46,988 nt of DNA, taken from assembly GCF_003350405.1 (NCBI RefSeq), contig NZ_QQAW01000017.1, forward strand, positions 1 to 46,988. The letters run 5' to 3'. Source of the stretch: Gluconacetobacter liquefaciens. Lineage in GTDB: Bacteria > Pseudomonadota > Alphaproteobacteria > Acetobacterales > Acetobacteraceae. How positions within the stretch are numbered: position 1 is the first letter of the stretch; each line of letters opens with the position of its first letter. This document shows, one piece after another, positions 351-11,961 of the stretch. The position numbers were made by a program, and so were the translations under genes. The notes under the pieces were generated by a model. The model had not been told where the DNA came from. It made no database searches and saw nothing but the letters and a program-made list of their open reading frames with translations.

Positions 351-2584
351 CACGCGGCTCTCATTCCGAACGAACGCGTCTGGGGTGGGATGGCCATATT
401 CAGCCTGTTATTGGCGCCCGGCATGTCGCCAGGCAATTGCAGGGGACCTTGTTTGTGAAAGAATCCGGGCGCCGAGTCTACCAGCAGCGATGCCTGTTCG
501 AGGCAGGCGGCAATGCGCCGGGTGGGAACGTGGGATGCAGCGGGGCGCTCTTCGACATCGCGCATCACTTCCTGTGCCGCGGTGCGGAGGATCAGCGCGG
601 TGCGGGTGGGCTGGGTGCATAGATGCTGGAACGACGCCAGCGCCGCCAGCGTGCAGGCGCGGTCCTGTTCGTGCACCGCCGGATTCTGCACCAGATGCCG
701 CAGTCGCGCGATCAGGCGCCCCACCGAGACGCAGATGAACGCCGCATCGGTGGTTTCGTAGACGCGGGCAGGTGGTGCGACCAGCGAGAAGCGTTGGATC
801 ATACGCAGGATCTTCTGCATCTGCAGGTTTTCCCACACCGTCCAGCTGACGTGCCGGTTCAGCGGCAGGCTGGCCAGTTGCTGGGTGGCGCGATTCATCG
901 ACGTGACCAGTCGGGCGGTGTCCAGCCGATGGTCGGACGGCAGGATGACCCGGAAGACCAGAGCCAGCCCGATCAGGGCGATCAGGTAGGACAGCCAGAC
1001 ATTCATCAGGGACAGGTCGTCATAGGAGATCGGATTGCGGATCTGCACCATGGCATTGAAGAATACCGCATAACCGAAGCCGCGCATGGCGTGGCGGGGA
1101 TGGAATTGAAGCCAGATGCCCGGCAGCAGGCAAACCGACAGGGACAGCCACAACAGCGGATAACCGTCGATACGGGGCAGGAGGAAGGTCTGGCAGATGA
1201 AGGCGGCGGGAATCGCGGCCAGGGTGCCGCTGGCAAACATGACGCTGGCGCGGGATGCCACCGGGCTGGTGGCCAGCAGGCAGGACGCCGGGATGAGATA
1301 GGCGAGCATGGTGGCGCCGTTCGACCAGCGGAGGACATACCATGTCAGACAGCCCAGCAGGGTGACGAACGCGCCGCGCGTGCCGTTGCGCAGCGCCGCC
1401 GGCCAGTCGAAGAACAGTCGTAGCCGGATCGGGCGGACATGTGCCTGCGGCCCCACGAAATCGTCCAGCGCGCTGCGCAATTGCACCAGGATGTCGCGTT
1501 CGTTGTCGATGAACGCGATGGTGGGGAGGTCTTTGGTCTCTTCTGACAGGTCGTCCAGGGTGTCGATGGCGGCGGCGAGGTGGGTACGCATGCCGGCCGG
1601 ATCGTCGAGGTGCAGGTTTTCCGGGGGGATGACGGCGAAGCGCGCCATCACGTCATGCACCAGGTCGCGGGCGGCTGCGGATTGCGGATTGTCGGGCGGG
1701 TCGTCGCGCCAGATCGGGTGATGGGTGCTGAGCAGCCCCAGCAGCCGGGCCACGCCGGCACGCAGGCCGGCGGCCCGCCGGCCGATCGCGAAATTGTCGG
1801 CGGCGGCATATTCGATCGCTTCGACCAGCGCATTGGCCTGGGAGAGCAGGCGTGCGCGGGCGTCATAGCTGGTCAGCGTCATGGCGCGGAACGAGAACGG
1901 CTGGCCGCCATCGTCCGGCATGGGGGTCTGACCGGGGACCATGTCCTCCAGGTCCGCCGGGTGCGAGAACTGGCCGGTGATGTTGCGCAGCGTCTGGTCG
2001 ACCTGGCGCAGAACCTTTTCCGGCCGGCTGACCGACGTGACCAGAAACACCACGGCCGTGCTGACGATGCCGACCGTGACCGCCGACAGGCGCGACATGG
2101 CAGCCATGAAGATGCGGTCGGGGTCGGCGAAGGTGGAAATGGAAACCAGCACGATGGTGTAGCCCGCCAGCACGGCGGCATAGGCCTTGTAGAACCGCAG
2201 CAATGTTGAGACGCAGCAGGCGATGCCGATGATGATCGACAGACCCATGAAATAGAGCATCGGTGACTGCGGGAAGGCCGCCATCAGCAACACCGCTGCT
2301 GTTGCGCCGATCACGGTGCCGAAAATACGCCAGAAGCTCTTGGAGACCATCGCACCGACGACCGGGTTGGCCACGATCAGAACCGTCGTGACCGAGGACA
2401 TCGGTGTCTGGAGCTGGAAGAAGAATGCCAGGAACAGGGCCAGCCCCACGGCCAGCAGTGCGCGGATGCTGTAGGCGATAGTAGGCGAGAGTGCTTTCCA
2501 GTCGGGGAAGGCAAAGCCGCCGAAGCGGACCAGCGAGCGCGGGAAATGCAGCGCCGTGTGCGGAGGGACCAGACGGATGCTCAT
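350..2584 (-). CDS. FUSC-family aromatic acid efflux pump (AaeB-like)
   Basis: This is a 744-residue inner-membrane protein. The N-terminal half carries a block of about six membrane helices (roughly residues 35-185), then a soluble stretch (about 190-390), a second helix block (about 395-550) and a cytoplasmic tail. This duplicated plan is that of the fusaric acid resistance / AaeB family, which exports aromatic carboxylic acids and similar compounds. It is the first gene of a three-gene operon with DUF1656 and an HlyD adaptor. The start ATG at 2584 is followed by a short cytoplasmic leader. The substrate cannot be read from sequence; p-hydroxybenzoate-like acids are the family precedent. 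No adjacent LysR-type regulator is seen. Confidence 0.88.
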   Translation of the reverse strand: MSIRLVPPHTALHFPRSLVRFGGFAFPDWKALSPTIAYSIRALLAVGLALFLAFFFQLQTPMSSVTTVLIVANPVVGAMVSKSFWRIFGTVIGATAAVLLMAAFPQSPMLYFMGLSIIIGIACCVSTLLRFYKAYAAVLAGYTIVLVSISTFADPDRIFMAAMSRLSAVTVGIVSTAVVFLVTSVSRPEKVLRQVDQTLRNITGQFSHPADLEDMVPGQTPMPDDGGQPFSFRAMTLTSYDARARLLSQANALVEAIEYAAADNFAIGRRAAGLRAGVARLLGLLSTHHPIWRDDPPDNPQSAAARDLVHDVMARFAVIPPENLHLDDPAGMRTHLAAAIDTLDDLSEETKDLPTIAFIDNERDILVQLRSALDDFVGPQAHVRPIRLRLFFDWPAALRNGTRGAFVTLLGCLTWYVLRWSNGATMLAYLIPASCLLATSPVASRASVMFASGTLAAIPAAFICQTFLLPRIDGYPLLWLSLSVCLLPGIWLQFHPRHAMRGFGYAVFFNAMVQIRNPISYDDLSLMNVWLSYLIALIGLALVFRVILPSDHRLDTARLVTSMNRATQQLASLPLNRHVSWTVWENLQMQKILRMIQRFSLVAPPARVYETTDAAFICVSVGRLIARLRHLVQNPAVHEQDRACTLAALASFQHLCTQPTRTALILRTAAQEVMRDVEERPAASHVPTRRIAACLEQASLLVDSAPGFFHKQGPLQLPGDMPGANNRLNMAIPPQTRSFGMRAA

Positions 2585-2897
2585 GTCCGGGTTGCCGCGC
2601 CTGCGACGGCCGGACCGCAGCGCAACGGATCACGGCCGGGCCGTCCCTGTCGGGGCGCGCTCTTATGGGTCAGACGACGTCCAAAGGATCGTGCCCGTGC
2701 ACTACGCTCGGAGTCCGCCATCTCCACAGCTACCCGGTTTCCCTGACTTGCCATGAGGACGCATCAGGTCTGCGTGCTCATGAAATTGTGACGAGGGAAT
2801 ACGTTTCCAGAAATGGCGGGCGGGGGCCAATGCAATTTCAGCATGGTCCCCAACCGGCTTTGGCGTCTCTCAGGCAATACGGTGCTGATCGGAGGGG
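2585..2897. other. Intergenic region upstream of the FUSC operon
   Basis: No convincing gene lies in this stretch of 313 bases between the Holin-X-like gene and the FUSC gene, both read on the minus strand. Open frames here have poor codon use and no family resemblance. It should contain the promoter of the efflux operon, but I could not pick out reliable -35/-10 boxes or an operator. Confidence 0.4.
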
Positions 2898-3335
2898 TCA
2901 GATGCCCTTGCGGCCGAAGACCGAGCGGACGAGGTGCAGGATCGCGCGCAGGGCCTGGCGGCCGACCGGGCCGGCGATCGCGGTCGTCACGGCGGTCAGG
3001 GCCATGGCCTGGCGCAGTTCGTTCAGCGCGTGCTCGCGGGCGAAGCGGGCGCGGATTTCGGTCGCGGTCATGATCGAGCGGCGGCCGAGCAACAGGAACA
3101 GCAGTGCCATGGCGCCATCGATCGCGAAGACCAGGATCGCCGCGCCGAGCACGCTGAACCCCAGCGTCTGGTAGGCGAAGGCCCAAAGCAATGCGTGTCC
3201 CGACAGGATCGCCAGCAGGCCGAACACGGCGGCGACGACCAGGAACGCCACCTGCCTGCCGATGCGGATGGCCATCTCGCGGCGTACGGTCAGTTCCGCC
3301 TGGACAGTGGCTTTGCCAAGTTCGGCTATCTTCAT
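2898..3335 (-). CDS. Phage holin-like membrane protein (Holin-X / YqjE-like)
   Basis: The protein has 145 residues: an amphipathic N-terminus rich in charged residues, two long hydrophobic hairpin helices (about 30-50 and 58-85), and a basic amphipathic C-terminus. This is the plan of the putative actinobacterial Holin-X / YqjE group, which is widespread on bacterial chromosomes and not evidence of a prophage. The start ATG at 3335 is preceded by AAGGA and overlaps the stop of an upstream reading frame in an ATGA arrangement. The open frame continues upstream to 3632, but the added part is Arg/Pro-rich and reads like an out-of-frame translation, so I excluded it. The function is unknown, probably envelope-related. 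Confidence 0.6.
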   Translation of the reverse strand: MKIAELGKATVQAELTVRREMAIRIGRQVAFLVVAAVFGLLAILSGHALLWAFAYQTLGFSVLGAAILVFAIDGAMALLFLLLGRRSIMTATEIRARFAREHALNELRQAMALTAVTTAIAGPVGRQALRAILHLVRSVFGRKGI

Positions 3336-3632
3336 GGTCCTTGCTTCTTCCCTCTGCTTCGTTGGCGGGCGCTCCGCCGGAATGCCCGCCCGGCCAGATA
3401 GCTGATCGCGGCATGGCTGGCGATGGCCGCCGGTCGCATTCGGCGCACGGCGGTTCGGATGTCCGGCCGATGATCGGCCACTTCGCGTGGCTTGGCAACG
3501 ACCCGTGGGCCGTCGGTGCGCGGCCCGGCCAGTGGCGCGCGCCCTGGCCGATGGTGGGACGAAAACGGTCGTTCGCAGCGTGTGGTCGACGATTTTACGG
3601 GCTCGCGCCGCGAGATCGGTCGTATCTTTCAT
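3332..3632 (-). pseudogene. Small hypothetical gene with apparent frameshift
   Basis: A frame starting with ATG at 3632 begins like a real protein (MKDTTDLAARARKIVDHTLR) but becomes Arg/Pro/His-rich after about 35 residues. From near there a second frame gives a plausible basic C-terminal part (including RTAVRRMRPAAIASHAAISY) and stops at TGA 3332-3334, overlapping the ATG of the holin-like gene as ATGA. Joined, the two parts would make a protein of about 100 residues coupled to its downstream neighbour. I cannot place the shift precisely. A sequencing error, a true pseudogene, or a shorter gene using an internal start (GTG) are all possible. No family is recognised. Confidence 0.35.
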
Positions 3633-3688: not shown

Positions 3689-4804
3689 ATGGCTCCCCTC
3701 TCTCCACGTCTTGATGTTCGCGGATTTGTGTGCGCGCCGGTGGAGCCCTCCACGCCCGCGCTGTCATTTTCGATCGCGCCCGGCGGGTGTCTGGCGTTGC
3801 TGGGGGATCGCGCGGTCGATCTTTCCCGCCTGCTGGATACGCTGGCGGGCCATCTGCCGTGCGTGGCCGGCGAGATCCTGCTCGACGGGCGGGATGTGGC
3901 GGAGTTGCCGGCCGGCCATCGGGGGCTGGGATTGTTCAGTGCGCGCGATCCGTTGTTCGCGCACCTGACCGTGCGGCGGAACCTGGCCTTTCCGCTGGAG
4001 GCGCGCGGCATGGCTCGTCCGGCGATCGTGGCGCGGGTGGATGCTGTGCTGGCGCTGCTGGGGCTGGATGGATGCGCGTCCCGCCGGCCGCGCGCCCTTG
4101 ATCCGCAGGATGAATGGCGGGCGCGGCTTGGCCGGTTGCTGGTCTTCGCGCCGTCCGTCCTGCTGCTGGACGACCCGTTCGTCGGTTTGGCGCGGGGTGA
4201 TCGGCTGGCGATGCGCCGCCTGCTGGCGCGGGTGGCGCGGGCGCAGGGCCTGACGCTGCTGCTGGCGACCAGCGATCGCGAGGACGCGTTGCTGCTGGGC
4301 GACGCGATCGGCGTGCTGTCGGGGCGCGCGCTGTTGCAGATCGGCAATGCCGCCGAACTGTTCGACCGGCCGGCCTGCGACAGGGTTGCCACCGGCTTCG
4401 GCGACGCCAATGCCCTGACCGGGCGCGTCGCGTGGGTGGAAGACGATCTGGCGTCGGTCCATCTGGCCAGCGGCGCGCGGGTCGAGGCCATGGCAGGTCA
4501 GGGCCTGGCCGACGACATGCTGTGCACGCTGTGTATCCGGCCCGACCGGATTGCCACCCTGTTTCCGACCGGCCGGGCTGCCGCCGATGACGATGGCGAG
4601 GACACGCTGCCGACGGTGCTGGTGGGGCTGCATCATATGGGCGACCATATCCGGCTGCGTTTCCGGCTGGAGGACGGACAGGAGGTTCTGGTCCGCCGGC
4701 CGCCGGCGCAGAGCCTGACGGGGCTCGTGCCCGGACGCACCGCGCGGCTGGCGTGGCAGCCGGCCCATGCGGTGGCCTTTCCGTTTCGGGGGGAAATGGG
4801 CTAG
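3689..4804 (+). CDS. Degenerate ABC ATPase-like protein, PotA/FbpC type (pseudo-ATPase)
   Basis: This 371-residue protein follows the PotA/MalK plan: a nucleotide-binding fold (about 10-240), then a TOBE-like C-terminal domain (about 245-365, with IRPDR near 283). All catalytic motifs are lost in frame. The P-loop region reads LLGDRAVDLSR (about 37-47) with no GK[ST]. The Q-loop Gln is absent (LFSARDPLF, about 82-90). The LSGGQ signature is replaced by LDPQDEWRAR. Walker B is LLLDDP with Asp for the catalytic Glu. The switch His is replaced in ATSDRED (about 193-199). Flanking landmarks such as HLTVRRNLAFPL survive. It probably does not hydrolyse ATP normally. It starts an operon with a binding protein and a short permease, and its stop lies one base before the next gene. 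Confidence 0.75.
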   Translation: MAPLSPRLDVRGFVCAPVEPSTPALSFSIAPGGCLALLGDRAVDLSRLLDTLAGHLPCVAGEILLDGRDVAELPAGHRGLGLFSARDPLFAHLTVRRNLAFPLEARGMARPAIVARVDAVLALLGLDGCASRRPRALDPQDEWRARLGRLLVFAPSVLLLDDPFVGLARGDRLAMRRLLARVARAQGLTLLLATSDREDALLLGDAIGVLSGRALLQIGNAAELFDRPACDRVATGFGDANALTGRVAWVEDDLASVHLASGARVEAMAGQGLADDMLCTLCIRPDRIATLFPTGRAAADDDGEDTLPTVLVGLHHMGDHIRLRFRLEDGQEVLVRRPPAQSLTGLVPGRTARLAWQPAHAVAFPFRGEMG

Positions 4805-4805
4805 C

Positions 4806-5834
4806 GTGCCCGCCTGTTTATCCTGCCTCCTGCGAAAGTTCATTCCTCTGTCCCGCCCGCCCCGCATTCTCCGATCGCTTCGCCGTCTTCTGATCGGGTT
4901 GCTGCTGCTGGCGATCGTGCCGACTAGCGGGAATGCCCGGACAGGCTGGCGCACGCATGCGCTGGTGGTGAACAGTCTGGGCGGCGCCCTGAGTGCGGCC
5001 CAGGACAAGGCGTTTTTCCGCCCCTTCGCGGCCCAGATGGGGGTCGGTATTCTGCGGTATGTGTGGGATGGCGATCCGCGGCCCCGGTCGGGGCATGCCG
5101 GCCGTGCCTGGACTGTGGCGCTGATGGAAGACAGCACCGCCCGTGCCGCCTGCATGCAGGGATTTCTGCTGCGACTGGGCGGCGCCCCCGGCAGTGCCGA
5201 TGCCTGCGGCGTGCCGGCTATGCGCGAGGGAATTGCCCTGGCCTGGGATCGCGGCCGCATTCCGGTGGCCCCGCACTGGAGCGATTTCTGGAATGTCGTG
5301 CGCTATCCCGGCAAGCGGGGGCTGCGCCGCGATCCACGCTCGACGTTGGAGATCGCGCTGATGGCCGATGGCGTTGCACCGGCCGATGTCTATGCCGTGC
5401 TGGGCACGCCCGAGGGTGTCGCGCGGGCATTCCGCAAGCTCAGCCAGTTGCGTCCTTATATCGAGTGGTGGACCAGCCCGGCGGAATCCGCGCGCATCAT
5501 CAAGAATGGCAGCGTGCTGATGACCAGCGCGGCGGGGGGCGAGGTGACGGCCGCCGGGACCGGCCAGCGCGATGTGGGACTGCAATGGGAGCAGAGCCTG
5601 GATAATGGCCTGTCGTGGGGTGTTGCGCCCGATCTGGATCGGGCGGCGCGCGACCGGGCGCGCAGCCTACTGCATTTCATGGCGCAGCCCGAGCAGGTGG
5701 CGCGGTTCGCGTCGCTTTATCATGCGCATGGCGATGCGGGCTCGGTCACGCCACTGCTGATGGATGCCGCTTTCTGGCACGAGCATCTGCCCGACCTCTC
5801 CAAACGCTTCGCCGACTGGCTGGCTGCGCCATGA
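4806..5834 (+). CDS. PotD-like periplasmic binding protein of ABC module
   Basis: The protein has about 342 residues with an N-terminal signal sequence (RSLRRLLIGLLLLAIV followed by a small-residue cleavage region). The central part carries PotD-family landmarks: FWNVVRYPGKRGLRRDPR, TLEIALMADGV, a TPEGVARAF segment, and WW followed by a serine-rich ligand loop. This family binds polyamines and related small compounds in the periplasm for ABC import. I chose GTG at 4806, directly after the ATPase stop; the frame is open from 4767. Its permease gene overlaps its stop in an ATGA arrangement. The ligand is not readable from sequence. Confidence 0.72.
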   Translation: MPACLSCLLRKFIPLSRPPRILRSLRRLLIGLLLLAIVPTSGNARTGWRTHALVVNSLGGALSAAQDKAFFRPFAAQMGVGILRYVWDGDPRPRSGHAGRAWTVALMEDSTARAACMQGFLLRLGGAPGSADACGVPAMREGIALAWDRGRIPVAPHWSDFWNVVRYPGKRGLRRDPRSTLEIALMADGVAPADVYAVLGTPEGVARAFRKLSQLRPYIEWWTSPAESARIIKNGSVLMTSAAGGEVTAAGTGQRDVGLQWEQSLDNGLSWGVAPDLDRAARDRARSLLHFMAQPEQVARFASLYHAHGDAGSVTPLLMDAAFWHEHLPDLSKRFADWLAAP

Positions 5835-6277
5835 CCGGGTTGCCGGCTTTCTCGGTGCCGGCACTGGTTGTCAGTCTGCTGGTGGAAAGTGTGGCGGCTG
5901 GGGCTGCATGCGGGCTCGGCCTGCTGTTGCGGGCAGGGCCGAAGGGGCGGAGCGTGCTGTCGGGCGCCCGGATCGGGGCCCTGGCACTGGCAATCCCGGG
6001 GTGGATGGGGGCCGTGATGCTGTCGGGCCCCTGGCGCGACGGTGGTGCCGGGCCTGTCGTGATGCAGGCTGTTTGCCTTGTTCCGCTGGTTCTGTTGCCG
6101 CTTCTGCGCGCGCTCGATCGGTTGCCGCCTGGACTGACGCGGACGGCGGCAGGGTTGGGGGCGGGGCGGCTGGTGCGGTTGCGCGGCCTTTGGTTGCCGC
6201 TGCTGGGCCCGTCGGCGCTTGCGGCGGCGGTGCTGGCGGTAGCGGGGGCCGTGCTGGTTGGCGTGTTCGACGGGTAG
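5831..6277 (+). CDS. Short ABC permease-like membrane protein
   Basis: This 148-residue, strongly hydrophobic protein has about four membrane segments. It contains one recognisable EAA-type coupling loop (TAAGLGAGRLVRLRGLWLPLL, near 108-128), the motif by which importer permeases touch their ATPase. The usual Glu is replaced, and the protein ends one helix after this loop, where normal permeases continue for two further helices and usually total 260-300 residues. The start ATG at 5831 overlaps the stop of the binding-protein gene as ATGA. It is probably the remnant or a minimised form of a PotB/PotC-type permease. No second permease gene follows. Confidence 0.6.
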   Translation: MTGLPAFSVPALVVSLLVESVAAGAACGLGLLLRAGPKGRSVLSGARIGALALAIPGWMGAVMLSGPWRDGGAGPVVMQAVCLVPLVLLPLLRALDRLPPGLTRTAAGLGAGRLVRLRGLWLPLLGPSALAAAVLAVAGAVLVGVFDG

Positions 6278-6325: not shown

Positions 6326-6808
6326 ATGACCGATATGAAGCCGTTCTGGCAGGTCCGCCGGCTGGACGAAATGACGACCGAGGAATGGGAATCGCTGTGC
6401 GACGGCTGCGGACGCTGTTGCTTGCACAAGCTGCGCGAAGACGTGACCGAGCAGATCCTGTTTACCGATGTTGCCTGCCGGTTGCTGGATCTGGAAACCT
6501 GCCTGTGTTCGGACTATGCGTGCCGCCGGCGCAAGGTGCCCGATTGCGTGCAGTTGACCCCCGAGGCCCTGGCGGAAATCGACTGGCTGCCGCCCTCCTG
6601 CGCCTATCGGCTGGTGGCCGAGGGGCGGCCGCTGGCATGGTGGCATCCGCTGGTTTCGGGTTCGCCCGACACCGTGCATGAGGCCGGGGTTTCGGTGCGG
6701 GGCCGGGCAATCAGCGAGCGGCGGGCCGGGCAATTGGAGCATCACATTGTCGACTGGCCCGGCAAGACGCCCCGTCCGCGCCGGCCACGAGCGTGCGATC
6801 GGGCATGA
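6326..6808 (+). CDS. YcgN family cysteine-cluster protein (UPF0260)
   Basis: The protein has 160 residues and a conserved Cys-rich N-terminal signature, C25-x2-C28-x2-C31-C32 (CDGCGRCC), followed by further cysteines ([16 protein letters not shown], about 66-81). This is diagnostic of the UPF0260/YcgN family, whose cysteines probably bind a metal or iron-sulfur cluster; the function is unknown. The start is ATG at 6326; ATG 6335 (MKPFW) is an alternative that would match shorter homologues. Its stop overlaps the start of the metallopeptidase gene (ATGA), so the two are probably co-translated. Confidence 0.85.
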
Positions 6809-7527
6809 CGGCCAGCCTCTCCGGGCCGAGGCCGGTGGAGGCCGAGATTGTGCGGCTCGCAGGGCGGGATGTGCCGGTGCGCTGGCGCCGGTCGAGCCGG
6901 GCGCGGCGGTTGTCGTTGCGGATCGATGCGCGCGAGGCCGAAATCGTCATTACCCTGCCGCCGAGGGCGGAGCACGAGGCCGGGATGGCGTTGCTGCGCA
7001 ACCATGCTGTCTGGGCGCTGTCGCGGCTGGATCACCTGCCTGCGGCGGCACCGTGGCATGACGGGGGGCAGGTGGTGCTTGATGGGTGCGCGCATGGCAT
7101 CGTCCATTGTCCCGATGGGCGGCGGGGGGTGTGGATCGAGTCGGGGGTGGTGAAGGTGAGCGGTGAAGCGCCGTTCCTGCGCCGCCGCCTGATGACGTTC
7201 CTGCGGCAGGAAGCCGGGCATCGGCTGGGCGCGCGGCTGACAGCGCTGACGGGATTGTCCGGCCTGCGGCCGCGGCGGTTGGTGATCAAGGATACCAGTA
7301 GCCGTTGGGGTAGTTGCAGTGCGAACGGCACGGTGATGCTGAACTGGCGGCTGGTGATGGCGCCCGTGGATGTGCAGCATTACGTGATTGCGCATGAACT
7401 GGCGCATCTGCGGCATATGAACCATGGCCCGGATTTCTGGGTGCTGGTGGCTGCCCTGACGCCGCATCGCCATATGGCGGAAACCTGGCTGCGCAGGCAT
7501 GGACCTGCTTTGTTGCGCGCCGCGTAG
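6805..7527 (+). CDS. YgjP-like metal-dependent hydrolase (M48/DUF45 type)
   Basis: This 240-residue protein has the zinc motif HELAH, with a third ligand in the following NHGPDFW segment (around residue 197-212). A preceding RWGSCS motif is also typical of the YgjP/DUF45 family. The N-terminal half is the usual beta-rich region with RRLSLRID. The ATG at 6805 overlaps the stop of the YcgN gene by four bases; a GTG at 6793 is a less likely start. It is predicted to be a cytoplasmic zinc hydrolase, possibly a peptidase, of unknown substrate. The gene ends just before tRNA-Leu. Confidence 0.87.
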
Positions 7528-7703: not shown

Positions 7704-8669
7704 TTACTGTCTTCGCAGCAGCAAGATGCCCGCCGGCAGATGCGTCACTGTCATCCCGGCTGTTGCGGCAATGGCCGTGATGGCCGCGTCTGCCTGATCA
7801 ATACGAAATGCCCCGCTGATGGGCGGTGTTGCGGTGTCATCGGCCAGAACATAGACGCGGCCGCGCCGGTATCGTACGATGGCCGCGACGGCCTTATGGA
7901 TTGGTGCGTTGTCCAGAATGAGCTCGCCGTGCGCCCAGGCGGCGATTTCTTCGGGCGCGACACCATGTTCGACCGACGCGATCATGCCGTCGGTGTAACT
8001 GGTGCGGTCTCCGGCCTTCAGCCTGACGGGGGCCGGAGCGTGGTGCGGCGCATGGACATCCACGATGCCCCGCGCGACCGTCACACGGACACTTGCCTCT
8101 TCCCGGCGGATCTCGAACACCGTTCCCACATCCTCCGTTGTTCCATTGCGTGCCACCACCCGAAAGGGACGGCGCGGATCATGTTTCACTTCGAACAGCG
8201 CGTTGCCTTTCAGCAGCGTGATCGTCCGTTCCGTCGCGGTGTAGCGCGTGGCAATGGCGGTATCGCCGTCGAGAGTGGCGCGCGACCCATCGGCAAGGGT
8301 CAGCGTCTGCACCGTGGTTCCCGACCACTGATCGGCTCTGAGCCAGGTTGAGGCGACCGGGGCATATAGCACGAGAACAGACGCAACCATCGCGGCGCTG
8401 CCGAGGAACAGCCCCCGGCGTACGCTCCGGCGCACGCGATGCCTCTGACTCAGCCGTTGCCAGGTGCCGCGCGTGGTACGGTCCTGTTCCGGTGTGAGGT
8501 GAAGCGCGCGCCACAACGCCCGTTCCCGTTCGAAGACTGCGTTGTTATCCGGTGATGCCGCCCGCCAGCGTCGGAACGCGCTCAGTTCTTCGGCCGTCAT
8601 GGCGCCGGACGCCATGCGGACAATCCAGCGGCGCGCCGTTTCCGCGATATCGTGCGGTTGGTCTGTCAC
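7704..8669 (-). CDS. FecR-family anti-sigma/regulatory membrane protein
   Basis: This 321-residue protein has three parts. A cytoplasmic DUF4880-type N-terminus (about 5-60) contains the W-x2-R-x3-G region that binds the sigma factor. A single membrane helix follows (about 85-107). The periplasmic part has a FecR beta domain (about 115-215; LADGSRATLDGDT, VRVARG-like VTVARGIVDV) and a C-terminal STN-like domain. FecR proteins relay the state of a TonB receptor to an ECF sigma factor. It lies 87 bases downstream of the FecI-like gene on the same strand and opposite the STN-containing receptor at 9487, so the three form one surface-signalling system. Confidence 0.92.
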   Translation of the reverse strand: MTDQPHDIAETARRWIVRMASGAMTAEELSAFRRWRAASPDNNAVFERERALWRALHLTPEQDRTTRGTWQRLSQRHRVRRSVRRGLFLGSAAMVASVLVLYAPVASTWLRADQWSGTTVQTLTLADGSRATLDGDTAIATRYTATERTITLLKGNALFEVKHDPRRPFRVVARNGTTEDVGTVFEIRREEASVRVTVARGIVDVHAPHHAPAPVRLKAGDRTSYTDGMIASVEHGVAPEEIAAWAHGELILDNAPIHKAVAAIVRYRRGRVYVLADDTATPPISGAFRIDQADAAITAIAATAGMTVTHLPAGILLLRRQ

Positions 8670-8756
8670 GTAGTGCCCTTCGCCGTGTTTTCGCCCTTCT
8701 TCCTGAGACGAACGGCCATTGTACGATTTAACAGACGAACCATGATTCCGGGAAGG

Positions 8757-9260
8757 TCAGCCTGTTCGGGACGACGAAATGATATCCAGCGCGCGGCAGA
8801 TATATCGGCTGACAAGGGCGATGGACCGGCCCATGCGCGCGGCGATTTCCTTTTGCGGTACGCCATGGAAACGGTTGAGCACGAAGACGGTTTTCATCGG
8901 TTCCGGAAGGGCCGCGACGGCCTTTTCGATTTCTTCCAGTTCGTGCCGGGCGAATAGCGTGCGTTCCGGCGACGGCGTGTCATCCTCGATCCAGAGAAGG
9001 TCATGGATGTCGCTCTGGATTTCCTCGCGCCGCTTGGCCTGCCGGGCGTGGTCGATCGCGAGGTTGGAGGCGAGGCGATAGAGGAAGGCGCGCGGGTTGA
9101 CGATCTCCGCCGCATTCTCGATGCGCCGAATCTTTTCGAACAGCGACTGCACCGCATCCTCGGCCGCTTCCGGATTGCCGACGATCCGCTGGATGACGTT
9201 GAGCAGCTTCTGCCGTTCCGCAGAAATCAGGTCCGTCAAAACCGCGATGTTGTCCTGCAT
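8757..9260 (-). CDS. FecI-like ECF sigma factor
   Basis: The protein has 167 residues with sigma region 2 (about 10-75, including FLYRLASNLAIDHAR) and region 4 (about 110-160, with LPEPMKTVFVLNRFHG and a helix-turn-helix EIAARMGRSIALVSRYI). It lacks extra domains, as is normal for FecI. I chose ATG at 9260 over the longer frame start at 9326 because a Fur-box-like sequence and inverted repeat occupy 9297-9318, which would otherwise be inside the gene. It should direct transcription of the divergent TonB receptor gene when FecR signals. Confidence 0.92.
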   Translation of the reverse strand: MQDNIAVLTDLISAERQKLLNVIQRIVGNPEAAEDAVQSLFEKIRRIENAAEIVNPRAFLYRLASNLAIDHARQAKRREEIQSDIHDLLWIEDDTPSPERTLFARHELEEIEKAVAALPEPMKTVFVLNRFHGVPQKEIAARMGRSIALVSRYICRALDIISSSRTG

Positions 9261-9296
9261 GACGTGCCGCCTGTCCGATGCTCTTCTCCGCCTCCT

Positions 9297-9318
9297 ACCA
9301 TTCGTGAGAATGGTTCGC
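9297..9318 (-). promoter_or_regulatory. Candidate Fur box upstream of fecI-like gene
   Basis: ACCATTC-GTGA-GAATGGT (9297-9314) is a perfect 7-base inverted repeat. Read on the minus strand the site begins TGCGAACCATTCTCA, close to the alphaproteobacterial iron-box pattern (TGCAAA-x-CATTCTCA as I recall it). It lies about 37 bases before the chosen sigma-factor start. Iron repression of this signalling system is therefore likely but not proven. Confidence 0.55.
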
Positions 9319-9486
9319 AAATCCATGAGTGTGACTGTTGTTCTGTTCGGAATACGAATCCATCGGGCTTGTTTCCCGAGGGAACAGCAAAAAAAGAGCG
9401 CAGCAGGTGTAGAGAGCGGCGCCGCTCCGTCGTCATAGGTCTGTAGTTCTTAAGAATACGTTTCATTTGCAGCGGGGAAAGTTTCG

Positions 9487-11961
9487 GTGACAGTCCATAG
9501 GTGCTATCGCGGAGTCAGGTCATTCTCGCGCCTTTACGCCATTGCCCTGCTGATGGGTCCTTGCCTTGCGGGGCCGGGCGCTCGCGCGGCCGAGGGGCAA
9601 ATCGCCCCCACGACCCCCTTGGCGACGATCCGGCATTTCTCGATCCCGGCCCAGCCTCTGCGAGGTGCCTTGCAGGCGTATTTTCGGCAATCCGGCGTTC
9701 AGGTGGCCTATCCGACTTCTGATGCCGGGGCTGTCCGCAGCGTCGCCGTGATGGGCGATTTTACGCCTCAGGAGGGACTGTCCCGCCTGTTGGCCGGCAC
9801 GGGCCTGACATACCGTTTCACGAGCCCGAACAGCGTGACGCTCGGTAAAGCGGCCTCTGCGATCGTGCTCGGTCCGGTGCGCGTCGGCGGCACGGCAAGT
9901 TCGTCCGGAGGAGATGCGCAATCGGCTTACGGTCCTGGCGTCGGTTTTGTCGCGACCCGTAGCGCCTCCGCCACCCGGACCGATACACCGCTGATCGAGA
10001 TGCCGAAGACAGTCTATGTCGTGACGCGCAAGCAGATGGATGATCTGCAACCGCTCACGATCGGCGCGGCGTTGCGCTATACGCCGGGTATCGTCAGCTT
10101 GAGCGCCAATGACAGCACGCCTTCAGCCAGTCTGTTTCAGCCGGTGCATCAGCGTGGCTTCGAGTCCTATACATTCGTGGATGGATTGCTGAATGGAACG
10201 TCCGTCAGCGATCCATTCTTTCTGGACCGGATCGAAGCTTTAAGCGGTCCGTCATCAGTCATGTATGGGCAGGCCAATCCCGGTGGTCTCATCAACATGA
10301 CGCTCAAACGCCCGACCGAAAAGGCTCAGGGGCAGGCGAATGTAGGCTTTGGCAATTACGGGCGTTACGAAGGGCAAGTCGATTTCAGCGGCCCACTGAA
10401 TAAGAGCCGGACATTGCTTTATCGCCTTATTGGAGTGGGTATTACCCAAGGATCGCAGATTGACTACAATCACTACAAGCGACTGGCTGCTCAAGGTGAT
10501 ATCGAATGGAAGATTGATAAAAAGACCGATCTCACCATCATTGGACAGTTTTCCTATGATCCGGAGTCACTAGATCCATGGATTGGCGTTCCCGCATATG
10601 GCAGCTTGATCAAAGCCAATTTTGGTCGTTTGCCGGTATCGAGATACTACGGAGATCCGTCTTTTAATTATAACTGGAATCGAGAATACATGGTTGAAGC
10701 TATTTTTCACCATGAGTTTACGCGAAACCTTCAGTTTAATTCGACTGCACGTTTTGATGCGCAGAGTAACGGGGGGTGTGGTCTCTGGCTTAATAGCGTC
10801 GACCCAACCACCGAGACGATCAGTCGGTCTGCGTTTTGTGATAGCTCGATCAAGGGACGTTCATCTCAGATGACGGCCAATCTTGGCTATAAGCTAAAAA
10901 CAGGACCGATTTCGCACTCTCTTCTCGTTGGCGTCGATTATCGCGCACAATGGTCGGACGGTTACTGGGGGTTCGACTTTGCGACAGTCCCAGATGCAAG
11001 CATTCTTCACCCCGTTTATGGTCAGTATACATTCGCCGATTACAATAATTATCGGAAAGGAAAATCCACATGGGCGAAATATAACTACTGGCAGGACGGT
11101 ATCTATTTTCAGGATCAGATCAAATGGCGCCGTTTCTACGTAACGCTCGCTGGGCGTCAGGATTGGAACGGATATGGCGATCTTTTTAACCGGCCGTTTA
11201 CATGGAATGCGGGGATCAACTATGTTTCTAGCATCGGACTTGCGCCGTATTTCAATTACGCGAAATCATTCATGCCCCAAACCGGGAGTGTTTATAGAAA
11301 CGATAATATTGTGCAGCCTGATCCGTTGAGCGGACATCAATGGGAAGGCGGACTGAAATACCAGATCCCGCATACCCAGTCCCTTTTGACTGCTGCTTAT
11401 TATGATCTGTCCGAAAACAATGTGCTCGTGAGCAACCCGGACTTTCCGCAATATAGTAGTGAAGTCGGTCAGGTAAAGTCCAAGGGTGTCGAACTTTCGG
11501 CCCATGCCAATCTGGCGCAGGGTCTGGACCTGATTTTGAACTACACGTGGAACCGGGTTTATAATTCACGCACGAATCTGACCGGGCAGACGATCGGAGG
11601 CGAAACGGTTTCGCTGCTTGGCAAGCGACATGCGCAGCAGCCGACGAACATGGCCTCCGGATTCATCGACTATCGTTTCCCCAAAGGGATCGCGCCGGGT
11701 CTGTCGATCAATTTTGGTGTTCGCTATCAGGGCCGGAGCTGGGCGGATCAGGCCAACTCCTTTCGTAATCCCTCTTATGTGCTGTTCGATACGGGTTTCA
11801 GCTGGGACGCGGGGCAGGTGTTTTCTTCCATGAAAGGACTGAACATCAGACTGAGCATGAACAATGTTGCTAACAAAATCTACGTTCAGTGTAATTCTAC
11901 CGACCTCTGTTATTACGGCGATAAACGTGTTGCGTATGGTACAATCGGTTATCATTTTTGA
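9487..11961 (+). CDS. TonB-dependent siderophore receptor with STN signalling domain
   Basis: This 824-residue outer-membrane receptor has a signal peptide (about 1-35), an STN domain (about 48-120, starting FSIPAQPLRGALQ), a plug (about 150-290, with GFESYTFVDGLLN, DRIEALSGPSSVMYGQANPG), and a 22-strand barrel ending in aromatic YHF. The STN domain marks it as a transducer for the divergent FecI/FecR pair. The start GTG at 9487 follows GGGGAAAG. The 5' third is G+C-rich like the genome, but the barrel (about 10150-11600) is clearly AT-richer with rare codons. The ligand is probably a ferric siderophore, identity unknown. TTCTTAAGAA at 9447-9456 is a possible promoter-region palindrome. Confidence 0.93.
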   Translation: MTVHRCYRGVRSFSRLYAIALLMGPCLAGPGARAAEGQIAPTTPLATIRHFSIPAQPLRGALQAYFRQSGVQVAYPTSDAGAVRSVAVMGDFTPQEGLSRLLAGTGLTYRFTSPNSVTLGKAASAIVLGPVRVGGTASSSGGDAQSAYGPGVGFVATRSASATRTDTPLIEMPKTVYVVTRKQMDDLQPLTIGAALRYTPGIVSLSANDSTPSASLFQPVHQRGFESYTFVDGLLNGTSVSDPFFLDRIEALSGPSSVMYGQANPGGLINMTLKRPTEKAQGQANVGFGNYGRYEGQVDFSGPLNKSRTLLYRLIGVGITQGSQIDYNHYKRLAAQGDIEWKIDKKTDLTIIGQFSYDPESLDPWIGVPAYGSLIKANFGRLPVSRYYGDPSFNYNWNREYMVEAIFHHEFTRNLQFNSTARFDAQSNGGCGLWLNSVDPTTETISRSAFCDSSIKGRSSQMTANLGYKLKTGPISHSLLVGVDYRAQWSDGYWGFDFATVPDASILHPVYGQYTFADYNNYRKGKSTWAKYNYWQDGIYFQDQIKWRRFYVTLAGRQDWNGYGDLFNRPFTWNAGINYVSSIGLAPYFNYAKSFMPQTGSVYRNDNIVQPDPLSGHQWEGGLKYQIPHTQSLLTAAYYDLSENNVLVSNPDFPQYSSEVGQVKSKGVELSAHANLAQGLDLILNYTWNRVYNSRTNLTGQTIGGETVSLLGKRHAQQPTNMASGFIDYRFPKGIAPGLSINFGVRYQGRSWADQANSFRNPSYVLFDTGFSWDAGQVFSSMKGLNIRLSMNNVANKIYVQCNSTDLCYYGDKRVAYGTIGYHF

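Follow-up and report, generated by a model that had tools for sequence, protein, structure and literature searches.

Related systems and the locus under study

The spermidine/putrescine importer PotABCD is assembled from an ATPase, a substrate-binding protein (SBP) and the permeases PotB and PotC, and in Escherichia coli PotABC the PotA substitution E173Q was found to leave only marginal ATPase activity (PMC11414716). Here we describe a relative of this system from Gluconacetobacter liquefaciens (Acetobacteraceae), on contig NZ_QQAW01000017.1 of assembly GCF_003350405.1, of which positions 1 to 46,988 were analysed as one stretch (the window). Three consecutive genes, for a PotA-like pseudo-ATPase, an SBP and a 148-residue mini-permease, are by their sequences the probable remains of a PotABCD-like importer that was dismantled in the Acetobacteraceae. 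The importer function is almost certainly gone, to judge from the residues replaced, and the SBP appears to be the part that outlasts the rest.

The resemblance to PotABCD lies in an ATPase profile closest to PotA, a gene set derived from ATPase, SBP, PotB and PotC, and a retained coupling loop; the differences are that the catalytic residues are gone, that there is no full PotB or PotC, the permease being reduced to its core, and that scores fall far below PotA cut-offs. Degenerate-site exporters of the ATP-binding cassette (ABC) class, such as TAP and TM287/288, similarly contain a nucleotide-binding domain (NBD) with substituted catalytic residues; there the deviations sit in one of two composite sites (PMC7756269), whereas the only NBD gene of this locus is substituted at five motifs. 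The SBP matches solved binding proteins for GABA, polyamines and opines (4i1d, 6dgv, 4eq7, 5l9g), and differs from them in having no functional transporter at its locus and in standing as an orphan in 26 genomes. Transport-free use of SBPs with chemoreceptors or sensors is a known principle; in contrast to those systems, no receptor gene was recognised at this locus, and a dead ABC partner is kept in many genera. Among the matches listed from openly licensed PubMed Central papers, nothing describing an importer with a dead NBD, or this locus, was found, and the accessible portion of the G. diazotrophicus genome paper (PMC2765452) contains no passage on it, the 'potA' matches there denoting potassium.

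A PotA-like protein without catalytic residues

As the initial annotation had stated, the ATPase-like frame is intact over 371 codons, with no internal stop, and keeps its TOBE-like domain. Both the ABC_tran (PF00005, 45.1 bits against a cut-off of 25) and TOBE_2 (49 bits) domains score above the curated Pfam cut-offs, and in an AF2 model (mean pLDDT 90.4, pTM 0.86) strands and helices succeed one another as in an ABC ATPase, with a beta-rich domain after them. The protein is therefore an ABC ATPase by descent, with a profile above cut-off and an ABC-like order of secondary structure. The nearest solved-structure sequences to its profile are those of PotA (8zx1, 8y5f; E 7.4e-57), and the models specific to PotA were missed by a wide margin (TIGR01187, 143.2 of 355.6 bits; NF006987, 118.1 of 482 bits).

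Motifs were assigned by aligning the window ATPase to intact relatives. The Walker A Lys is replaced by Leu, the Q-loop Gln by Ala, the Ser-Gly-Gly of the LSGGQ signature by Asp-Pro-Gln, the Walker B Glu by Asp and the switch His by Ser, so that all five are substituted. The Walker B Glu corresponds to E173 of E. coli PotA. Of the other site residues, S46 (the Ser/Thr of Walker A) and D162 (the Asp of Walker B) are still present; the statement in the initial annotation that every catalytic motif is lost thus holds for the five key residues or motifs, and is slightly too strong for the sites as a whole. A homodimer of this NBD would have no working ATP site and, with sites shared by both NBDs, a mixed dimer is expected to fail too.

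Distribution in the Acetobacteraceae

A search of 397 Acetobacteraceae genomes at an orthologue-grade threshold (E<=1e-61; counts by hand from the listing) gave 82 matches, one of which (genome G100) retains Walker A. The remaining 81, the window included, come from 17 genera and have no internal stops, and the ATPase is likewise free of internal stops in 13 of 13 other genomes of the same genus. Carriers include Gluconacetobacter, Komagataeibacter, Novacetimonas, Acetobacter, Neokomagataea, Tanticharoenia, Brytella, Ameyamaea and Lichenicoccus, which together with other carriers make up 39 of 40 listed loci; the 40th is a weak Paucilactobacillus match. Among the matches listed, where records very near the window may be absent, the closest named locus is that of G. 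dulcium LMG 1728, with an ATPase 96% identical.

Motifs were read in 44 of the 81 strong matches and in G014 and G031, which gave 46 dead sequences. None has the Walker A Lys or the Walker B Glu; the Q-loop Gln and the switch His occur in two each, and the first and second signature Gly in one and two, respectively. At two otherwise dead ATPases, L079 (G377) and L084 (G304), the switch His is present, and G377 also has Gln in the Q-loop column. All catalytic residues are present in the 23 LSGGQ-bearing sequences, a count that is circular for the signature itself, by which this 'intact' class was defined; five of its members (G017, G019, G024, G029, G125) lack any locus marker and G027 shows only a PotB match, and these may be paralogues. 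A third class of eight sequences keeps Walker A with none of the Gln, signature Gly or His residues (0/8 each), the Walker B Glu being kept in five. The shared loss of motifs, for which the initial annotation had proposed a search in this family, thus accompanies a homologue matched in 81 of 397 genomes (motifs read in 44), and its possible absence from all related genomes, also raised there, is contradicted by the 17 genera that carry it.

The dead group has a mark of its own. In most intact proteins the Q-loop Gln is followed by S-Y-A-L-F, and in most dead ones the same position is followed by R-D-P-L-F (R in 37, D in 34 and P in 41 of the 46). The Q-loop borders the cleft between NBD and permease. 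Together with the coupling loop kept in the mini-permease, a conserved RDPLF beside the Q-loop suggests that docking of the NBD on the permease outlived catalysis.

The binding protein and the mini-permease

The window SBP is a member of SBP_bac_8 (PF13416; 72.3 bits, cut-off 27), and its profile matches GABA-, polyamine- and opine-type SBPs (4i1d, 6dgv, 4eq7 and MotA 5l9g) with E values from 1e-35 to 2e-27, which suggests a polyamine, GABA or opine-like ligand. Signal peptides and transmembrane (TM) segments were judged by crude hydropathy scripts; the signal test was passed by 19 of 27 SBPs. A new disulfide was considered as a mark of the dead group and rejected, since 11 of the 14 SBPs that accompany intact ATPases have the Cys pair too.

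With 21.9 bits for BPD_transp_1 (PF00528), the mini-permease falls below the cut-off of 26.4 and is not recognised as a family member. A profile of its own family, on the other hand, matches residues 71-199 of the 268-residue intact PotC of G210 (E 1.7e-22) and residues 215-330 of PotB of G294 (E 2.5e-21). The match leaves about 70 residues of PotC uncovered at either end, and hydropathy suggests some four TM segments of one subunit. On these profile matches, homology to the PotC core is clear, and the description of the partners as a PotD-like SBP and a 148-residue permease with one EAA-type loop is borne out.

The initial annotation also called both gene junctions tight. The SBP and permease genes do overlap by ATGA, as read in the sequence. 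The 1-base junction between ATPase and SBP presupposes the GTG start at 4806 and is uncertain, since an in-frame ATG lies upstream at 4767; among ten other Gluconacetobacter loci, an upstream ATG is found in five (L123-L127) and different starts in the others (L128-L132).

Selection on the three genes

Ratios of nonsynonymous to synonymous change (dN/dS) were estimated by NG86 as medians over the 55 pairs formed by 11 Gluconacetobacter sequences (for YgjP, 53 pairs were usable). The ATPase (0.274) and SBP (0.253) lie close to the neighbouring YgjP (0.283) and FUSC (0.225) genes, with YcgN at 0.105 and the mini-permease at 0.445; constraint on the ATPase lies inside the span set by the neighbouring genes, and is weaker on the mini-permease. 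Within the ATPase the C-terminal/TOBE part (0.210) changes more slowly than the NBD (0.300), and in four close pairs the whole gene is at 0.12-0.15. The three genes are under purifying selection in Gluconacetobacter, as the initial annotation had envisaged for the ATPase frame (0.27). A recent pseudogene was rejected on the unbroken frames of 81 genomes and this ratio; of the two signs of a pseudogene, a broken frame was seen in none of the 81 genomes and relaxed selection was not seen in Gluconacetobacter, and G161 does have broken frames.

Full operons, dead operons and intermediate states

Gene order was compared among the fetched loci, namely 45 dead, 23 intact and eight with Walker A only. 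The dead loci contain a divergent small gene in 44 cases, the SBP in 43, the mini-permease in 43, YcgN in 42 and YgjP in 41. All five markers are present in 41 of the 45, and 43 combine the ATPase with both SBP and mini-permease. None of the 45 has a full PotB or PotC, and live permeases beside the dead ATPase were rejected as a candidate on this count. The two dead loci without an SBP are G022, which ends at a contig end, and G031, which has a different layout with a 228-residue permease-like frame directly after the ATPase. At L087 (G092), some 1.4 kb of extra sequence lies between SBP and mini-permease, both of which are retained, and at L093 (G107) the SBP frame is about 600 residues long with two separate matching stretches, as if sequence had been inserted.

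Behind nine of the 23 intact ATPases lie an SBP, PotB and PotC, and five stand next to the divergent small gene (G187, G294, G023, G162 and G103, all more distant relatives). G187 and G294 combine the full ATPase-SBP-PotB-PotC operon with that same gene, from which it follows that the dead operon occupies the site of a former full importer. Of the two signs that the initial annotation had named, taken together, as speaking against a repurposed module, close homologues with intact motifs at the same locus and neutral decay here, the first is seen in these more distant relatives, and the second neither in the window nor in its genus.

Other loci show partial states. An intact ATPase and SBP with no permease found behind them occur in G023, G162, G206 (where the stretch is short), G348 and G113. 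Among the Walker-A-only loci, G316 has a 153-residue hydrophobic frame behind the SBP that is unmatched by the mini-permease profile, G100 a hydrophobic stretch that is weakly matched as PotC-type (E 1e-8), G088 no permease behind and G016 full permeases; the position filter lists a mini-permease for none of the eight, despite the G100 match and the G316 frame. A gene that we take to be of MlaE type follows in nine of 23 intact and two of eight Walker-A-only loci. At L051 (G033), L106 (G200) and L109 (G103) it comes directly after an intact PotA-like ATPase, with no SBP or permease found between.

The ATPase and SBP trees disagree on how these states arose. In the ATPase tree (which leaves out L056 and six near-identical Gluconacetobacter rows and keeps L057 as OUT_G019), a single branch (99/97) splits off the intact sequences, a second one (100/100) splits off 39 of the 40 dead ones, and the Walker-A-only sequences and G031 fall between them. 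The SBP tree (which leaves out 18 rows, being near-identical ones, L118 and the broken L205, and also L098 with fewer than 180 letters) scatters the Walker-A-only loci among the intact ones, forcing four changes. It also places orphan SBPs, which lack the other two genes, in at least three places, with at least three changes of that label; ten of 16 orphan rows lie inside a dead-operon group (100/99 for the group of 15), and another two, G136 and G192, sit on the side of the intact loci. Both trees include rows of odd letter composition, and the SBP tree has long branches. A single ordered loss, signature first and Walker A last, fits the ATPase tree and is contradicted by the SBP tree, and one event is not claimed; just as likely are repeated, independent losses, with the ATPase tree distorted by long-branch attraction. 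The states themselves are firm, and neither the number of their origins nor their order is.

Orphan binding proteins in small genomes

In 37 small genomes (1.9-2.7 Mb), hand-picked among the weak ATPase matches of the family search and thus no random sample, the SBP profile matched in 7 of 11 and in 20 of 26. In 26 of the 37 the locus keeps the SBP, next to the divergent small gene, and has lost both ATPase and mini-permease; in 18 of these 26 YcgN comes directly after the SBP. The orphans span seven genera (g14, g57, g65, g85, g94, g124, g125), and three of them (L174, L177, L199) score 43-56 bits for SBP_bac_8. Relocation of the dead ATPase was rejected: searched with its profile, 23 of the 37 small genomes yielded eight with matches at E<=1e-45, seven of them canonical ATPases away from the locus (Walker A, LSGGQ, THD) and the eighth the two pieces of a broken gene in G161.

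In genus g57, for which selection on the orphans was estimated, the SBP is kept in 11 of 11 genomes and is under purifying selection, with a dN/dS of 0.141 (18 usable of 55 pairs, median dS 1.08), against 0.136 for YgjP, 0.109 for the divergent gene and 0.084 for YcgN. Orphan and dead-operon SBPs share the Cys pair and a conserved block at about residues 147-239 of the window SBP (the orphan conservation table has 27 rows, L205 included). Retention is uneven in g65, where the SBP is present in five genomes and missing in four.

Functional interpretation

The reading that we favour, as probable though well short of assured, is a transport-free module in which the periplasmic SBP is the working part, and the dead ATPase and mini-permease are its non-catalytic membrane partner. 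The dead NBD would still dock on the coupling loop of the mini-permease, as its conservation suggests, and the two would form a non-catalytic membrane platform. The SBP would bind ligand in the periplasm and act without transport, either as a buffer of the ligand or by reporting through the platform that ligand is present; in genomes without the platform, it would work alone. A broader version is only tentative, namely that across the family the importer became an ATP-free receptor, in which SBP, mini-permease with coupling loop and RDPLF-bearing pseudo-NBD make up a transmembrane ligand-reporting complex, and that several lineages kept a periplasmic role of the SBP itself after shedding the complex. 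The initial annotation had proposed an ATP-independent sensing or binding module rather than a random pseudogene; purifying selection, wide spread and residues that exclude ATP-driven import agree with this in part, sensing being a putative role, and the weight it had placed on the dead ATPase has shifted to the SBP.

Several observations weigh against a transport-free module. The stepwise loss of partners can also be read as slow reduction, the mini-permease is the least constrained of the genes (median 0.445, single pairs up to 0.94), and in the comparison of orphans synonymous change is close to saturated. The profile match starts at position 25-44 in 19 of 26 orphan SBPs and at 51-78 in three others, so that the first lobe is either shorter than usual or diverged, and normal ligand binding is in doubt. 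The SBP profile found no match at E<=1e-10 in 10 of the 37 small genomes, and around YcgN in four SBP-less ones (G066, G102, G117, G068) none of the three genes was found. In G161 (L205) both ATPase (2557-3483) and SBP (1349-2055) are in pieces in separate frames, with mini-permease and YcgN retained, a decaying copy or an assembly error. The broken frames and the SBP-less genomes mean that the module can be lost.

Slow reductive decay, whereby a useless importer is eroding and its frames have not yet broken, has in its favour the broken genes of G161, the small genomes without an SBP match, the empty surroundings of YcgN, the partial states across the family and the weak constraint on the mini-permease. 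It is nevertheless an unlikely account of 81 genomes in 17 genera with no internal stop, of an ATPase whose dN/dS of 0.27 is inside the range of neighbouring genes, of five markers all kept at 41 of 45 dead loci, and of an SBP retained alone at 0.14.

A little less probable still is ATP-driven transport by SBP and mini-permease through an ATPase encoded elsewhere, the dead NBD serving as a regulatory partner. Some importers are known to share an ATPase, as with MsmX and MsmK, and the genome of the window offers 77 potA-profile matches (its own included, none above the curated cut-off) and 27 permease domains above the Pfam cut-off. Each ATP site is, however, built from both NBDs and needs residues of both (PMC7756269), and because the sites are composite one wholly inactive NBD is expected to disable the two of them even when its partner is functional. 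No full permease accompanies any of the 45 dead ATPases, moreover, and the SBP persists where the locus has neither ATPase nor mini-permease.

That the pseudo-ATPase acts alone, through its TOBE domain, as a cytosolic binder of ligand or protein, for instance as a regulator to which the membrane parts are secondary, seems improbable. The lower dN/dS of the TOBE part (0.210 against 0.300) and the intact ATPases without an SBP or permease found behind them in G033, G200 and G103 would suit such a role; it is the ATPase, however, that is gone while the SBP stays in 26 genomes, and ATPase, SBP and mini-permease remain together at 43 of 45 dead loci. An ATP-free facilitator, in which the SBP hands substrate to a mini-permease channel working down a gradient, would fit the joint retention of these two at 43 of 45 dead loci and is very improbable, given some four TM segments of one subunit only (by hydropathy) and an SBP that persists without the mini-permease, and we know of no precedent for it.

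Neighbouring genes

The features of the locus are collected in Table 1. A Pfam search gave no match for the divergent small protein, and a functional link to YcgN or YgjP was dropped, the association being one of synteny only. Beside the locus, a FUSC-family efflux protein gene lies at 350-2584 on the minus strand; in the stretches covered, it is also found in Novacetimonas and at every other Gluconacetobacter locus but L042 and L043, and is mostly missing in Komagataeibacter. Downstream, at 7704-11961, are frames that by the look of their translations are FecR-like, sigma-factor-like and TonB-dependent-receptor-like.

Table 1. Features of the locus, in coordinates of the window
Feature	Coordinates	Strand	Basis
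Divergent small conserved hydrophobic protein, 146 aa; syntenic marker	2898..3338	-	
PotA-like pseudo-ATPase, ABC domain and C-terminal TOBE domain	3689..4804	+	Frame, Pfam, model, profile
Former Walker A, residues 39-46; canonical Lys replaced by Leu, last Ser kept	3803..3826	+	Alignment
Former Q-loop (Gln replaced by Ala85), then RDPLF (86-90), motif of the dead group	3941..3958	+	Alignment
Former LSGGQ signature, now LDPQD (137-141)	4097..4111	+	Alignment
Walker B; Asp162 retained, Asp163 in place of the catalytic Glu	4172..4177	+	Alignment
Former switch His, now Ser195	4271..4273	+	Alignment
PotD/GABA-type SBP; N-terminus resembling a signal peptide (by look); start GTG, or possibly ATG at 4767; Cys116 and Cys134 conserved	4806..5834	+	
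Mini-permease, 148 aa, PotC-like subunit core	5831..6277	+	Pfam, profile
EAA-type coupling loop of the mini-permease, residues 105-127	6143..6211	+	
YcgN-family cysteine cluster protein, syntenic downstream neighbour	6326..6808	+	
YgjP-like metallopeptidase domain protein, syntenic neighbour	6793..7527	+	

Implications

An ABC importer is commonly regarded as an ATP machine that works as a whole or not at all. In the Acetobacteraceae a series of states is found within one family and largely at one locus, which runs from the full operon by way of Walker-A-only ATPases, and of a fully dead ATPase with half a permease, to the orphan SBP and complete loss. The series also carries a warning for annotation, as these genes score as parts of an ABC transporter and cannot be transporters of a known type. 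It makes two questions testable, whether a dead NBD can be retained for a non-catalytic role, and what role an SBP plays once its transporter is gone.

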